Virus record (IMG/VR): IMGVR_UViG_3300042376_001060
Coordinates: 1-43,297 of that record
Length of the DNA: 43,297 nucleotides
Strand: one strand, 5' to 3'
DNA from: a virus
Shown: piece after piece, positions 8,005 to 17,207 of the stretch
How the letters are laid out: every line of letters begins with the position of its first letter
How positions within the stretch are numbered: position 1 is the first letter of the stretch
The notes under the pieces: generated by a model
What the model was told of the DNA's origin: nothing
What the model saw: only the letters and a program-made list of their open reading frames with translations
Databases searched by the model: none
Translations under genes and position numbers: made by a program

Positions 8005-8864
8005 CGGTACCGTTCACGATCGAGCACACCGACCCGCAGGTGGTTACGGTGAGGTGCAAGGCGAAGGGGGAAGATTGGGCTCAGTGGTTCCTGCTTCGGA
8101 CTGACGCCCACCACGACAACCCGCATTGCGATCAGGCAATGGAGCGGCGGCACCTTGACGAAGCGGTGAGGCGGGGTGCGGGTGTCATCGACGCGGGGGA
8201 CCTGTTCTGTGCGATGCAGGGGAAGTACGACAAGAGGTCCGATAAGTCATGTCTGAGGCCGGAACATCAATGCGGGGACTACCTCGACGCGCTCGTTCGA
8301 ACCGCGTCGGAGTTCTACGCTCCCTATGCGCCCTACTGGATCGTCATGGGGCGTGGGAACCACGAGAGCAGCATCAAGAACCGCCACGAGACGGACCTGA
8401 CCGAGCGGACAATCGAGCGGATTCACATGAAGACCGGGACTCGGATCCCGAGCGGGGGGTACACGGGGTGGGTGCGGATCCTGCTTGAACGGTCTACCAA
8501 GCGGTCGTCAATCCGGTTGTGGTACTGCCACGGCTGGGGCGGGGGTGGTGCGGTGACGGTGAACATGATTCAGGCTGGCAACCGAATGCCCGCGATGGTT
8601 GACGGTGCGGACGTGATCTTTACCGGCCACGTTCACGAAGCATGGGTGAACGAGCGGGTTCGGGCGGGGCTGTCTGACATGGGCGTGCCGGTGCAACGGT
8701 CGCTGCACATCTGCCAAGGACCGTCGTACAAAGACGAGTACGCGGACGGGCGGGGCGGGTGGCACATTGAGACGGGCAAGCCGCCGAAGCCGGTGGGTGC
8801 GTGGTGGATGAAGTTGACGTATTCGGACGGGGTTCCGGGCGTTTCGTTTGAGCGGGCGACGTGA
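8001..8864 (+). CDS. Calcineurin-like metallophosphoesterase
   Basis: 287 residues. The metal-binding motif set of the calcineurin-like phosphoesterase family is complete: D-x-H (Asp35, His37), GD (66-67), GRGNHE (117-122), CHGW (His177) and GHVH (209-212). Such enzymes hydrolyse phosphomono- or diesters with two divalent metals; in phages they may act as nucleases, 2',3'-cyclic phosphodiesterases or signalling-nucleotide hydrolases, and the substrate cannot be told here. It is the last gene of the rightward late block, and a -10-like TATAAT follows its stop by 4 bases. Confidence 0.88.
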   Translation: MTVPFTIEHTDPQVVTVRCKAKGEDWAQWFLLRTDAHHDNPHCDQAMERRHLDEAVRRGAGVIDAGDLFCAMQGKYDKRSDKSCLRPEHQCGDYLDALVRTASEFYAPYAPYWIVMGRGNHESSIKNRHETDLTERTIERIHMKTGTRIPSGGYTGWVRILLERSTKRSSIRLWYCHGWGGGGAVTVNMIQAGNRMPAMVDGADVIFTGHVHEAWVNERVRAGLSDMGVPVQRSLHICQGPSYKDEYADGRGGWHIETGKPPKPVGAWWMKLTYSDGVPGVSFERAT

Positions 8865-8867
8865 GGG

Positions 8868-8873
8868 TATAAT
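8868..8873 (+). promoter_or_regulatory. Consensus -10 element after the phosphoesterase gene
   Basis: A perfect TATAAT. The hexamer 17 bp upstream is CGTTTG, a poor -35. Predicted start is near 8880, which would give a transcript of about 170 nt ending at the hairpin at 9019-9040. Confidence 0.45.
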
Positions 8874-8879
8874 TCACCA

Positions 8880-9053
8880 GCGGACGACCCTTCACCCCAG
8901 TGGTGAACGGAAGGAAGCCTTCGGCTCGTGACGAAGTAAATCCCACGAGTGGCACCCCTTCTCCCCCTCCGGTTTCCCCGGCGGTGGAGGATTCTGGAAC
9001 CTGCCTTTCGAGCGGCATCGCCCACCCTCACCGGTGGGCGTTGCTGTTTCTAG
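8880..9053 (+). ncRNA. Candidate small RNA or untranslated leader
   Basis: No convincing ORF. Hairpins follow one another: TTCACC/GGTGAA (8891-8907), CTCGTG/CACGAG (8925-8949), CCTCC/GGAGG around an inner CCG/CGG (about 8966-8990), and CGCCCACC/GGTGGGCG (9019-9040) followed by a T-rich run. With TATAAT just upstream, this looks like an independent RNA unit. It matches no family I know. It could instead be the structured 3' end of the late mRNA. Confidence 0.4.
9019..9053 (+). terminator. Intrinsic terminator-like hairpin
   Basis: CGCCCACC (9019-9026) pairs with GGTGGGCG (9033-9040), loop CTCACC, then TTGCTGTTTCTAG. It would separate late transcription from the early promoter that follows. 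The T tract is interrupted, so efficiency is uncertain. Confidence 0.6.
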
Positions 9054-9091
9054 GGTTTCCCCCGGTTCGTCACTTTGTTTCCGCAAAACCC

Positions 9092-9120
9092 TTGACGACC
9101 GGGCGGAAGCGTGCCATACT
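9092..9120 (+). promoter_or_regulatory. Sigma70-type promoter for the early block
   Basis: TTGACG (9092-9097), a 17-bp spacer, then CATACT (9115-9120). This is the best promoter in the window. Predicted +1 is about 9127, exactly where the first arm of the leader structure begins. Confidence 0.75.
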
Positions 9121-9126
9121 TCTGAC

Positions 9127-9227
9127 GCGAGTCGGAAAACACACAAATTGACCCAGCCCCGTTGTTCGGCTACCGACTCGCAAGCCGTTGCCGTTAGATC
9201 CCTGCGGGGGTCCGACGGGGCTGGGTC
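9127..9227 (+). promoter_or_regulatory. Structured leader RNA with interlocking helices (pseudoknot order)
   Basis: Helix A: GCGAGTCGG (9127-9135) with CCGACTCGC (9173-9181), 9 bp. Helix B: GACCCAGCCCCGT (9150-9162) with ACGGGGCTGGGTC (9215-9227), 13 bp perfect. A smaller hairpin (9197-9202 with 9207-9212, loop TGCG) lies between. The arms come in the order A-B-A'-B', so both can form only as a pseudoknot. The ribosome binding site GGAGG and the ATG at 9246 follow 18 bases later. A second leader with the same order is at 14861-14956. Confidence 0.6.
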
Positions 9228-9245
9228 GGTTTGTGGAGGTTGAAT

Positions 9246-9596
9246 ATGAGCGAACAGACGAAGGCGATTGAGGACGGGGGACCGGCGTTTCCAGTCAGCA
9301 CACGGCACGAGGACGGCAAGTGGGGCCACCAAGACGGCCCGACGACGTGGCAGTGCCCCGGCATGACCCTCCGCGACTACTTCGCGGCGAAGGCGCTGAC
9401 CGGGTTTATGTCGTCGTTTCAGGCGATCAATCGAGAGCGTCCGGAGTGGAAGAGTGACGAACCCGCCAACGACTGGATTACGCCTGACGTTGAAGCGGCC
9501 GAAACCGACGACACGGCTTCGCCAGCAAATGTCGCGGCAGCTTGCTACACGCTTGCCGACGCCATGCTCGCCGCCCGCAAAGGCGGTGTCGCGTGA
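9246..9596 (+). CDS. Phage protein with GGPAFP...GMTLRDYFAAKA signature
   Basis: 116 residues; GGAGG sits upstream of ATG 9246. It contains a GGPAFPV segment (about 11-17) and GMTLRDYFAAKAL (about 39-51), a pairing I recognise from many small phage and prophage hypothetical proteins, with no known role. The C-terminal part (about 90-116) is Ala-rich helix. First gene after the early promoter and structured leader, so probably expressed early. Confidence 0.75.
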   Translation: MSEQTKAIEDGGPAFPVSTRHEDGKWGHQDGPTTWQCPGMTLRDYFAAKALTGFMSSFQAINRERPEWKSDEPANDWITPDVEAAETDDTASPANVAAACYTLADAMLAARKGGVA

Positions 9597-14789: not shown

Positions 14790-14842
14790 ATCACACACCA
14801 TCCACACCTAAACCCCCGCTTGCAACAAGCGAGCGGTGTGAT
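14790..14842 (+). promoter_or_regulatory. Inverted repeats and DnaA-box-like motifs upstream of the replication promoter
   Basis: ATCACAC (14790-14796) and GTGTGAT (14836-14842) are inverted; between them lie ATCCACA and the hairpin CGCTTG-CAA-CAAGCG. TTATCACACA, ATCCACA and TGTGGTAT each resemble the DnaA box TTATCCACA imperfectly. A binding region for a regulator or DnaA-like protein is plausible; no exact box is present. Confidence 0.35.
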
Positions 14843-14845
14843 TTG

Positions 14846-14854
14846 TGGTATGAT
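14846..14854 (+). promoter_or_regulatory. Extended -10 promoter for the replication genes
   Basis: TGG directly precedes TATGAT (14849-14854), the TGn extended -10 pattern that can work without a -35. Predicted +1 is about 14861, where the first arm of the structured leader begins. Confidence 0.6.
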
Positions 14855-14860
14855 TAGGCA

Positions 14861-14956
14861 ACTCACCCATGTTCACCATTTGCGCCATTCCGGAAGCCCC
14901 CGTCACCGTCGCCATGTCTCTGAACATGGGTGAGTCTTCGGTGTTCGGGGGCTTTC
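14861..14956 (+). promoter_or_regulatory. Second structured leader RNA with interlocking helices
   Basis: Helix A: ACTCACCCATGTTCA (14861-14875) with TGAACATGGGTGAGT (14921-14935), 15 bp perfect. Helix B: 14892-14902 with 14946-14956, built on AAGCCCCCG/CGGGGGCTT and extended by a G-T and a G-C pair. Order A-B-A'-B' gives a pseudoknot, as at 9127-9227, and again the first arm begins at the predicted +1. The initiator ATG follows 24 bases after helix B. Confidence 0.65.
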
Positions 14957-14991
14957 GCTTTGGCGGGACTGGGGGCACGGATGCCGACTGA
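14869..14991 (+). CDS. Candidate 40-aa leader peptide
   Basis: An ATG inside helix A opens a 40-codon frame ending 8 bases past the initiator ATG (14981). The end is Gly-rich. If translated, ribosomes would melt the leader helices and couple to the initiator gene. There is no Shine-Dalgarno site and only about 8 nt of 5' leader, so this is tentative. Confidence 0.3.
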   Translation: MFTICAIPEAPVTVAMSLNMGESSVFGGFRFGGTGGTDAD

Positions 14992-15889
14992 CGTTTACAC
15001 GATCAAAGACTGGAACGAGACGTTCGAGAACTTCCGGACGCGGGCGCTGACCACAAGCCTCCGCTGGGTCCAGTTGCCGACCAAGCAGGACGCGCTCGGA
15101 TTCAGGATGCTTATGCGTTCCCCGGAAGGGGTGGCGGCATACGGCGTGTTTGTGGCCCTTGTGCAGATCGCGGCCAAGGTTCCGGTTCGTGGGGTGCTCG
15201 CGGACGAGAAGGGCCCTATGTCCGATAACGTGCTGGCCGCGAGGATCGGTTGCCCGTTGGAAGTGCTCACGAAAGCGCTGCAAGTACTTACTGGGCCTGA
15301 CGTTGGGTGGATCATCGTTCAAGCATCGACCGACCATCGATCGACCATCGTTCCTGCATCGATCGAGCATCGATCGTCTATCGTGGGTCCCTTCCCTTCC
15401 CTTCCTTCCTTTCCTTCCATTCCTGAAGAAACGAAAACTCCGAAACCGGGGATCAAATACCAGCCCGGACAGGTCGATCAAGCGTTCTCCGCGTTCTGGA
15501 ACGCATACCCCGCAAACAGGCAGCGAGCCCGAACAACCGTCCGGAAGTTCTGGATCGATAACGACCTCACCGCCCACGCCCCGAAGATCATGGCGGCGCT
15601 CGCCAAGGACAAGGCATCCGCCGAATGGACCAAGGACGGTGGGAAGTTCGTCGGCAACATGGCCGAGTGGTTGGACCGCGACTGGACCTCTATTACCCCG
15701 CCCGTTGCGTCAGGACGCCACCCAAGGGCTCCGGACATCCGGACGTGGTACGACAGCCTCCCGCCCGAGCGACAGCAGGAAGAGGCATCCAAGGCGAATC
15801 TGCCGCTCACCGCCGTCCGCGAACTGATGAACCACCACACGATCCCCGAACAGATCATCAAGTCATGGGAGGCCAACCATGTTGCATGA
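14981..15889 (+). CDS. Replication initiator / replisome organizer (origin-containing gene)
   Basis: 302 residues. ATG 14981 is preferred over the upstream GTG at 14930, which lies in the leader helix. The N-terminal 120 residues read as a winged-helix-type DNA-binding domain (YGVFVALVQIA, then LAARIGCPLEVLTKALQVL). Residues 110-150 are low-complexity because the DNA beneath consists of iterons and a pyrimidine tract. The C-terminal part has the FWNAYP...RKFW...WLDRDW pattern of phage replisome organizers that load helicase. It overlaps the DnaB gene by 11 bases, matching an initiator-helicase module. Confidence 0.78.
   Translation: MPTDVYTIKDWNETFENFRTRALTTSLRWVQLPTKQDALGFRMLMRSPEGVAAYGVFVALVQIAAKVPVRGVLADEKGPMSDNVLAARIGCPLEVLTKALQVLTGPDVGWIIVQASTDHRSTIVPASIEHRSSIVGPFPSLPSFPSIPEETKTPKPGIKYQPGQVDQAFSAFWNAYPANRQRARTTVRKFWIDNDLTAHAPKIMAALAKDKASAEWTKDGGKFVGNMAEWLDRDWTSITPPVASGRHPRAPDIRTWYDSLPPERQQEEASKANLPLTAVRELMNHHTIPEQIIKSWEANHVA
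15313..15389 (+). repeat. Seven tandem 11-bp iterons (candidate replication origin)
   Basis: Units start at 15313, 15324, 15335, 15346, 15357, 15368 and 15379, exactly 11 bp apart. Each begins CATCG (the last TATCG); units 2, 3, 5 and 6 continue as A-C/T-CG. Examples: CATCGATCGAC, CATCGATCGAG, CATCGTTCAAG. The period is about one helical turn and is not a multiple of three, so it is kept as DNA rather than as a protein repeat. Confidence 0.85.
15388..15426 (+). other. Pyrimidine tract next to the iterons (possible unwinding element)
   Basis: Almost pure C/T on the + strand, built from CCCTT and CCTT units, followed by an A-rich stretch (GAAGAAACGAAAACTCC). It sits where the AT-rich unwinding region lies beside lambda ori iterons. 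Homopyrimidine DNA can also form triplexes. Confidence 0.6.
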
Positions 15890-17207
15890 AGACCCGCACG
15901 ACATGACCGCCGAGTTTTGCTTGATCGGGTGCTGCTTGCTCGAACCCGGCGTTATTGACGACGTGGTGGAAGCCGTCGGTGGAGTCTCCGCGTTCCACAA
16001 CCAGCGGCACCGAACCGTGTTCTCCGCGATCCAGTCCGTTCACGAATCCTCCGGCACCTTGGATCTTGTGATGCTTCGGCGGCACATGGAGGACGAGGGC
16101 ACGCTCGCCACGATTGGCGGGGATGACGCTCTGGCCGAGTTTGCAAACGGCGTCCCGGTGGCGACGAACTGGCCGCACTACGCCAAGAGCGTTGCAAGAA
16201 AGGCCCAGCAGCGGCTTGTGCTTCAGGCGTGCGAGGCTGCGGCATTCAGCATCCGAAGCGCCAGCACTGGGGAAACCGAGGAAGTCATCGCGTCGTCAGC
16301 CGAGGCGGTGATCGCTGCCGCCATGCAGTCCGACCGGACGCCGGACGTGAGCCTGAACGTTCTGCTTGAACAGTCCATCGAAGAACTCGGAAAGACAACC
16401 CTGAGCGGGCTGAGGCTTCCGCTTCGGGAACTGGCCGATCGGGTCGGCGATCTTGTGCTCGGTGAGTACACCGTGGTTGGCGCTCGCCCGTCGATGGGAA
16501 AGACCGCGTTTGGTATGCAGTGCGCCCTGTCGCTTGGACGGGTTGCCCCCGGTGCGTTCTACTCGATTGAGATGCCCGCCGCAACCATCGCCCACCGCAT
16601 CCTTGCCGGGCTGGTCAACACAACGGTTACGAACATCCGGCAGAACCGGGTGGACCACATGGCCCTTGCCCGCGAGGTGATCCGGCTGGGGGACATTCCC
16701 GTGACGATCGACGCGACGAACCCGCTCACGCTGCAATCGCTCACGTCCAAAGTGCGCCGGATGGTCGCTCGCAAGGGTATTCAGTGGGTGGTAATCGACT
16801 ACCTGCAATACATGAACTCGCCCCCGCACGCGAAAGAGGGTCGGCGTGCGGAGATTGAGGCGATCAGCCGTGGCCTGAAGACTCTGGCGAAGAATCAGGG
16901 CATTCACGTTATCTGTCTCGCGCAGCTCAACCGTGGCGTTGAGGGCCGATCGGAGAACCGTCCGCGAATGTCCGACCTTCGGGAATCGGGCGCGATTGAG
17001 CAGGACGGCGACAACATCCTCCTGCTTCACCGCGAGGCGTATTACCACAAGGGCGACGTTGCGTGGATGCAGGACAATCCCACCAAGATCGACGAGGCGG
17101 AAGTGATCGTGGACAAGTGCCGCAATGGGGAAACGTGTTCGGTGACGTGCAAATGGAATGGGCCGAGCACGCGGTTCGAGGAACGTGATGCGGGGTGGCA
17201 GGGATGA
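15879..17207 (+). CDS. dnaB: DnaB-type replicative helicase
   Basis: 442 residues, full length for the family. The N-terminal helical domain (1-110) carries the LLEP and VFSAI segments of DnaB. The RecA-like motor has Walker A GARPSMGKT (201-209), a YSIEM strand (228-232), Walker B VVIDY (304-308), the sensor AQLNR (348-352) and the LRESGAIEQD arginine-finger region (367-376). It would form a hexamer that unwinds DNA 5' to 3' ahead of the host replicase. GGGAGG lies 10 bases before ATG 15879. Confidence 0.95.
   Translation: MLHEDPHDMTAEFCLIGCCLLEPGVIDDVVEAVGGVSAFHNQRHRTVFSAIQSVHESSGTLDLVMLRRHMEDEGTLATIGGDDALAEFANGVPVATNWPHYAKSVARKAQQRLVLQACEAAAFSIRSASTGETEEVIASSAEAVIAAAMQSDRTPDVSLNVLLEQSIEELGKTTLSGLRLPLRELADRVGDLVLGEYTVVGARPSMGKTAFGMQCALSLGRVAPGAFYSIEMPAATIAHRILAGLVNTTVTNIRQNRVDHMALAREVIRLGDIPVTIDATNPLTLQSLTSKVRRMVARKGIQWVVIDYLQYMNSPPHAKEGRRAEIEAISRGLKTLAKNQGIHVICLAQLNRGVEGRSENRPRMSDLRESGAIEQDGDNILLLHREAYYHKGDVAWMQDNPTKIDEAEVIVDKCRNGETCSVTCKWNGPSTRFEERDAGWQG

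Follow-up and report, generated by a model that had tools for sequence, protein, structure and literature searches.

Leaders of two phage operons are probably a swappable, sequence-unrelated version of the P1/P4 antisense immunity switch

Results

Two operons open with leaders of crossing helices

We found that two early operons of the window (the whole stretch of 43,297 nucleotides analysed, taken from an IMG/VR virus record) open with leaders that are probably a new, swappable version of the antisense immunity switch of phages P1 and P4, unrelated to it in sequence and fast-changing. A promoter-like site, a first helix arm (A) placed at +1, two helices, compensatory conservation of their pairing, a swap of the cassette between related phages and a layout equal to that of c4 and CI are all directly evident. 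We consider that the leaders are c4/CI-like antisense control cassettes rather than a riboswitch, with a probability of about 0.6; a free hairpin RNA, its action in trans, repression and immunity are what we infer from these features.

The elements of leader 1 and the start of its operon are as follows.

9092-9120, + strand: promoter 1 (TTGACG 9092-9097, 17-nt spacer, CATACT 9115-9120)
9127-9135, + strand: arm A, GCGAGTCGG, pairing with 9173-9181
9142-9164, + strand: arm B, C-rich, in the loop of the A-A′ hairpin; the proposed antisense segment
9173-9181, + strand: arm A′, partner of arm A
9197-9212, + strand: small hairpin between A′ and B′ (9197-9202/9207-9212, GAUCCC-UGCG-GGGGUC)
9213-9235, + strand: arm B′, the proposed target, adjoining the ribosome-binding site
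9235-9239, + strand: Shine-Dalgarno-like GGAGG, into which B′ runs
9246-9596, + strand: first gene (116 aa, phrog_2201, function unknown), its ATG at leader position 120

An earlier, sequence-only reading had proposed this promoter, the arms and the third hairpin, and all of their coordinates were confirmed. Promoter 1 scores 9/12 and is the sole sigma-70-like site within 8800-9400, where shuffled sequences yield 0.1; the predicted +1, the seventh base past the -10 element, is 9127 and thus the first base of arm A, which supports the earlier proposal of a structured regulatory leader starting at that position. The second helix had been described as a 13-bp stem, and its perfect core is indeed of that length (9150-9162/9215-9227), but the helix was understated, as it extends to 23 bp when G-U pairs are included (9142-9164/9213-9235). 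A terminator-like hairpin (9019-9040) lies upstream of promoter 1. Directly 3′ of the phosphoesterase gene stands a TATAAT-like site, followed by approximately 170 nt of structured sequence up to this hairpin, and the region 8864-9060 possibly gives a short non-coding transcript.

The leader at 14861, to which leader 1 had been likened, shows the same design, with the arms again in the order A-B-A′-B′.

14846-14854, + strand: promoter 2, extended -10 TGGTATGAT with the hexamer TATGAT at 14849-14854
14861-14875, + strand: arm A, 15 nt, beginning 7 nt after the -10 element and pairing with 14921-14935
14883-14887, + strand: extension of arm B, pairing with 14961-14965
14891-14902, + strand: arm B, pairing with 14946-14957
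14921-14935, + strand: arm A′, partner of 14861-14875
14946-14965, + strand: arm B′ with its extension; the proposed target
14981-15889, + strand: replication initiator-like gene (phrog_9474), its ATG at leader position 121
15879-17207: DnaB helicase gene, next after the initiator-like gene

A terminator-like hairpin (14816-14836) overlaps the upstream edge of promoter 2.

The crossing helices stand out from chance

Among perfect inverted repeats with a loop of at most 120 nt, the two longest in the window are those of 15 bp at 14861 and 13 bp at 9150, the next best being 10 bp. When pairs of crossing helices were ranked, leader 1 (-67.8) and leader 2 (-57.5) took the first two places in the window, as compared with -48.3 for the best other pair on the + strand; the top two pairs on the - strand are the reverse complements of the leaders themselves, and a looser filter admits pairs on the complement of the coding strand at -54.9 and -53.6. 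None of 400 dinucleotide shuffles matched the observed strength from the first base, for each of five leaders (the two above and the three described below), so the earlier judgement that such crossing stems are unlikely by chance holds. The strength of leader 1 was unmatched in approximately 1.1 Mb of other phage loci. A scan of 2.0 Mb (211 loci), filtered for a promoter-like -10 element six to eight bases before arm A, returned only the two leaders of the window and one weak case; this filter is strict, and both leaders of the related phage G004 fall below its threshold.

Related phages carry the same design and exchange it as a unit

Three further leaders of the same design were found in two related phages, G002 (IMGVR_UViG_3300042539_000954) and G004 (IMGVR_UViG_3300042288_001356). 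The A-B-A′-B′ order is thus present in five leaders (1, 2, 4, 5 and that of G002) across three phages, and the distance from the -10 element to the start of arm A is exactly 7 nt in four of them. In all five, the 5′ arm B is C-rich and the 3′ arm B′ is G-rich; leaders 1, 4 and 5 also have UGUUCG or a near match close to where arm B ends.

G002 is approximately 97-99% identical to the window across long stretches, including the sequence just before 14855 and that from 17190 onward. Promoter 2 is retained up to 14855, and from there to 17190 the leader, initiator and helicase region is unrelated to that of the window. The mosaic exchange (14856-17190 of the window against locus L087 of G002) begins sharply just past the -10 element and stops where the helicase gene ends. 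The replacement leader again has the order A-B-A′-B′, and its arm A likewise starts on the seventh base past the -10 element. Leader, initiator and helicase are swapped as one unit between near-identical phages, which fits a specificity module. Helix A of the G002 leader has 19 bp in two parts, and only 2 nt separate A from B; on geometric grounds its A and B pairs should not all be able to form together, which would suit a switch that refolds or, alternatively, an element designed to pair in trans.

In G004, leader 4 precedes a homologue of the gene at 9246, and leader 5 occupies the position of leader 2. Leader 4 has a weak promoter and lies within an open frame that continues the integrase (PF00589; L126 6132-7637) with no stop through the leader; this may be a composition-driven open frame or a real overlap. 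The integrase of G004 suggests that some phages of this group are temperate. In the place taken by the replication initiator in the window, an HNH endonuclease gene (L208 15561-16112 of G004) follows leader 5 directly, and the frame from an AUG at +9 of leader 5 stays open into it.

Searches for additional members returned little. The promoter-2 pattern gave 30 matches in viral contigs, G002 alone being relevant and the rest mostly resembling coding sequence, and the pattern of leaders 2 and 5 gave five, with the known G004 alone relevant. Portal, initiator and helicase searches found few relatives. The sequence-only reading had suggested a covariance model built from both leaders of the window; a model of the family of the 14861 leader misses leader 1, the design being common and the sequence not. 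Covariance models R1 and R2 found no further clear family member, the weak matches of R2 (E 0.02-0.07) including one that overlaps leader 4. A candidate in G003 proved to be a repetitive stretch without a promoter. Another, L125, is a strong hairpin at a contig end. A host search with the phosphoesterase gave distant matches only, and the two genomes examined were without terminase.

Pairing is conserved between two homologous leaders

Leader 5 is homologous to leader 2 over 108 gap-free columns (0 of 500 shuffles). Compensatory changes, which had been proposed as a check, are present in this pair as nine double changes, four in helix A and five in helix B, as compared with 0-2 in slid-partner controls. 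Under the named structure 93% of cells in the alignment are paired; as the structure was read from these same two sequences, the count of paired cells is biased towards the unslid version. Although the basis is two sequences, it is difficult to explain in another way how both helices came to have double changes that keep them paired. The differences between the two leaders fall evenly over the codon positions (13/15/12), indicating that they are not coding; a coding reading from the AUG at +9 was rejected as there is no codon periodicity. Read on the + strand, the named helices comprise 157 Watson-Crick, 18 G-U and 0 mismatched pairs, as expected of an RNA with the sequence of that strand.

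The A-loop-A′ hairpins of the five leaders measure 55, 75, 90, 72 and 75 nt. The gene starts at leader position 120, 121, 120 and 134 in four of them, leader 4 being the exception with its gene approximately 180 nt further on. When folded in isolation, the A-B-A′ segment gives a hairpin whose loop contains most of B, and the strongest partner of each loop is the region downstream in the same leader (5/5 leaders); complementarity of the loop to sequence further down, ahead of the first gene, is a feature of the c4/CI type and is present in all five. In full-leader energies, nested folds with a B rod are much more stable than the hairpin with a free target, and B is no more accessible than in shuffled loops.

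Discussion

The earlier suggestions of a riboswitch or an attenuator were not supported. Apart from the leader 2/5 pair the leaders are unrelated in sequence, with no conserved core and no Rfam match at gathering, and no U-tract terminator lies within leader 1 or 2. An HDV-like ribozyme (P1-P2-P3-P1′-P4-P2′, with a catalytic C and cleavage 5′ of P1) would fit the arm order of leader 1, but no Rfam HDV match was found at E<=10, and +1 coincides with the start of helix P1, so that cleavage is unneeded; leader 2 has no A′-B′ hairpin comparable in strength to that of leader 1. A local hairpin competing for A′, as in a toehold switch, was not significant overall.

We propose instead that A-loop-A′, which makes up the initial 55-90 nt of the transcript, would fold as a hairpin displaying the C-rich B. 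B is complementary over 17-27 nt to B′, downstream on the same transcript by the ribosome-binding site of the first gene. The hairpins may be released by processing or early termination, and a free hairpin could then act in trans, pairing with the B′ of transcripts made later and blocking ribosome loading. With translation of the first gene blocked the operon would be shut down, perhaps with loss of the distal operon, and the role may be negative feedback or immunity against phages with the same cassette.

The main rival is a pseudoknot that acts only in cis. A-A′ would form first and B′ would then invade the loop, and the final fold would pair the 5′ end and set mRNA stability or first-gene translation, with no free small RNA. 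The arm order, which the sequence-only reading correctly named as that of a pseudoknot, fits this explanation, as do the ATG positions of three leaders (120, 121 and 120); the same order is also seen when an antisense RNA of the c4/CI type precedes its own target, a possibility that had been overlooked. B-B′ is very stable, and pairing in cis could dominate. Stem-loops at the 5′ terminus counter RppH, RNase E and RNase J. As arm A begins exactly at +1, the 5′ nucleotide would be paired, which should protect the mRNA (decay pathways are reviewed in PMC3997798), and a pseudoknot accounts for this alignment better than the antisense reading does. However, a plain hairpin would suffice for 5′ protection, two interlocking helices being unneeded, and in G002 the closeness of A and B, judged geometrically, argues against the full fold. 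Hypervariable sequence together with cassette exchange points to specificity over shape, and the exchange of complementary pairs is left unexplained. H-type mRNA pseudoknots (the T4 gene 32 leader and the IncB/ColIb repZ leader) likewise have crossing helices near a translation start; they are much shorter than the helices of the leaders (9-19 and 17-27 bp). We regard a purely cis-acting role as rather unlikely.

RNase III processing of leaders is known from the lambda N and T7 leaders, and the B rod might be such a site, at which the leader is trimmed and the ribosome-binding site freed. A B helix of 17-27 bp adjoining the Shine-Dalgarno sequence would suit this, but the conserved A-A′ helix and the start at +1 are left unexplained, and B of leader 2 has only 12 + 5 bp. 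As the explanation of the leaders this is improbable, while processing of this kind could coexist with the antisense reading.

A further possibility is antitermination in cis as in HK022, where nascent put RNA binds RNA polymerase and terminators of two early operons are read through. Like our leaders, HK022 putL and putR are structured and head early transcripts; there are two of them in the phage, each opening an early operon (PMC9378689). The put RNAs share sequence and two non-crossing stem-loops, whereas our leaders share neither and have crossing topology; contact with polymerase would require conserved bases, and we think this explanation quite improbable. A feature acting at the DNA level (an operator, a replication origin or a cruciform) is the least probable of all, since the G-U pairs of the + strand, the alignment with +1 and the lack of a common binding sequence speak against it, even though one copy precedes a replication initiator gene.

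To our knowledge, immunity based on antisense RNA has been described in few phages (P1, P7, P4 and their kin), and a single covariance model has served to catalogue it. A cassette that shares this layout but has no recognisable sequence suggests repeated origin or divergence of such systems, and that there are more of them than have been counted. We tentatively suggest that, in a group of uncultured temperate phages, hypervariable self-targeting antisense leaders confer specificity on early and replication operons and are exchanged with replication genes as an immunity cassette. Such a class, again tentatively, may escape searches by sequence or covariance and be recognisable by topology only, as a hairpin at +1 with a loop complementary to the start-site region. 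If action in trans is true, near-identical phages that differ only in the cassette would be natural tests of RNA-specified immunity groups.

Comparison with known antisense systems

The crossing scan was run unchanged on stretches of HK022, P1 and P4, and later of N15; P1 was scanned in parts only, and the N15 stretch has no annotated antisense locus. P1 c4 (-58.7) ranked first in the P1 immI stretch and P4 CI (-52.6) first in the P4 genome; as P1 and P4 were chosen because c4 and CI were already suspected, these ranks test the topology and are no discovery. Rfam labels both spots C4 (68.8 bits in P1 and 74.9 bits in P4). The A stem of P1 (locus 393-410/451-468) closes the mature 77-nt c4 (394-470), and its B-B′ (425-438/502-515) links the c4 loop to the b2 target before icd; the P1 record annotates b2 (48452-48459) as the C4 target before icd, inside the B′ found by the scan. 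The order A-B-A′-B′ therefore has a known meaning: the antisense hairpin comes first, and the site that it targets lies after it, next to the start of the first gene. Since c4 and CI were ranked first without use of their sequence, the topology test offers a practical search route for others.

In P1, c4 silences icd-ant (PMC8198154). The leaders differ from C4 of P1 and P7 (RF01695) in sequence, the Rfam C4 model giving no match in leaders 1, 2, 4, 5 or G002 even at E<=10, and no repressor or antirepressor gene was present among the ORFs scanned. C4 has two inner hairpins, which are absent or weak in isolated leader folds, and is processed from within a longer leader, whereas the leaders start at +1; because arm A starts there, they lack the upstream a1/b1 targets of C4. 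B-B′ of the leaders is longer and stronger than that of c4, the genes downstream differ, and each phage has two unrelated cassettes, unlike P1 or P4. The leaders nevertheless share with C4 the order stem-loop(b′)-stem-target(b2), in which b2 immediately precedes the transcript's first gene. The closing stem is present (9-19 bp), and the hairpins are similar in size (55-90 nt, as compared with 77 nt for mature c4); counted from the same reference point, the P1 gene starts at 129 and those of the leaders at 120, 121, 120 and 134. CI of the satellite phage P4 (RF01695) acts by premature transcription termination via two targets (seqA and seqC) and otherwise differs from the leaders as C4 does. 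It has the same topology and a target 5′ of a gene start, and it keeps replication genes off in the lysogen (PMC4825925), replication genes being likewise what leader 2 precedes.
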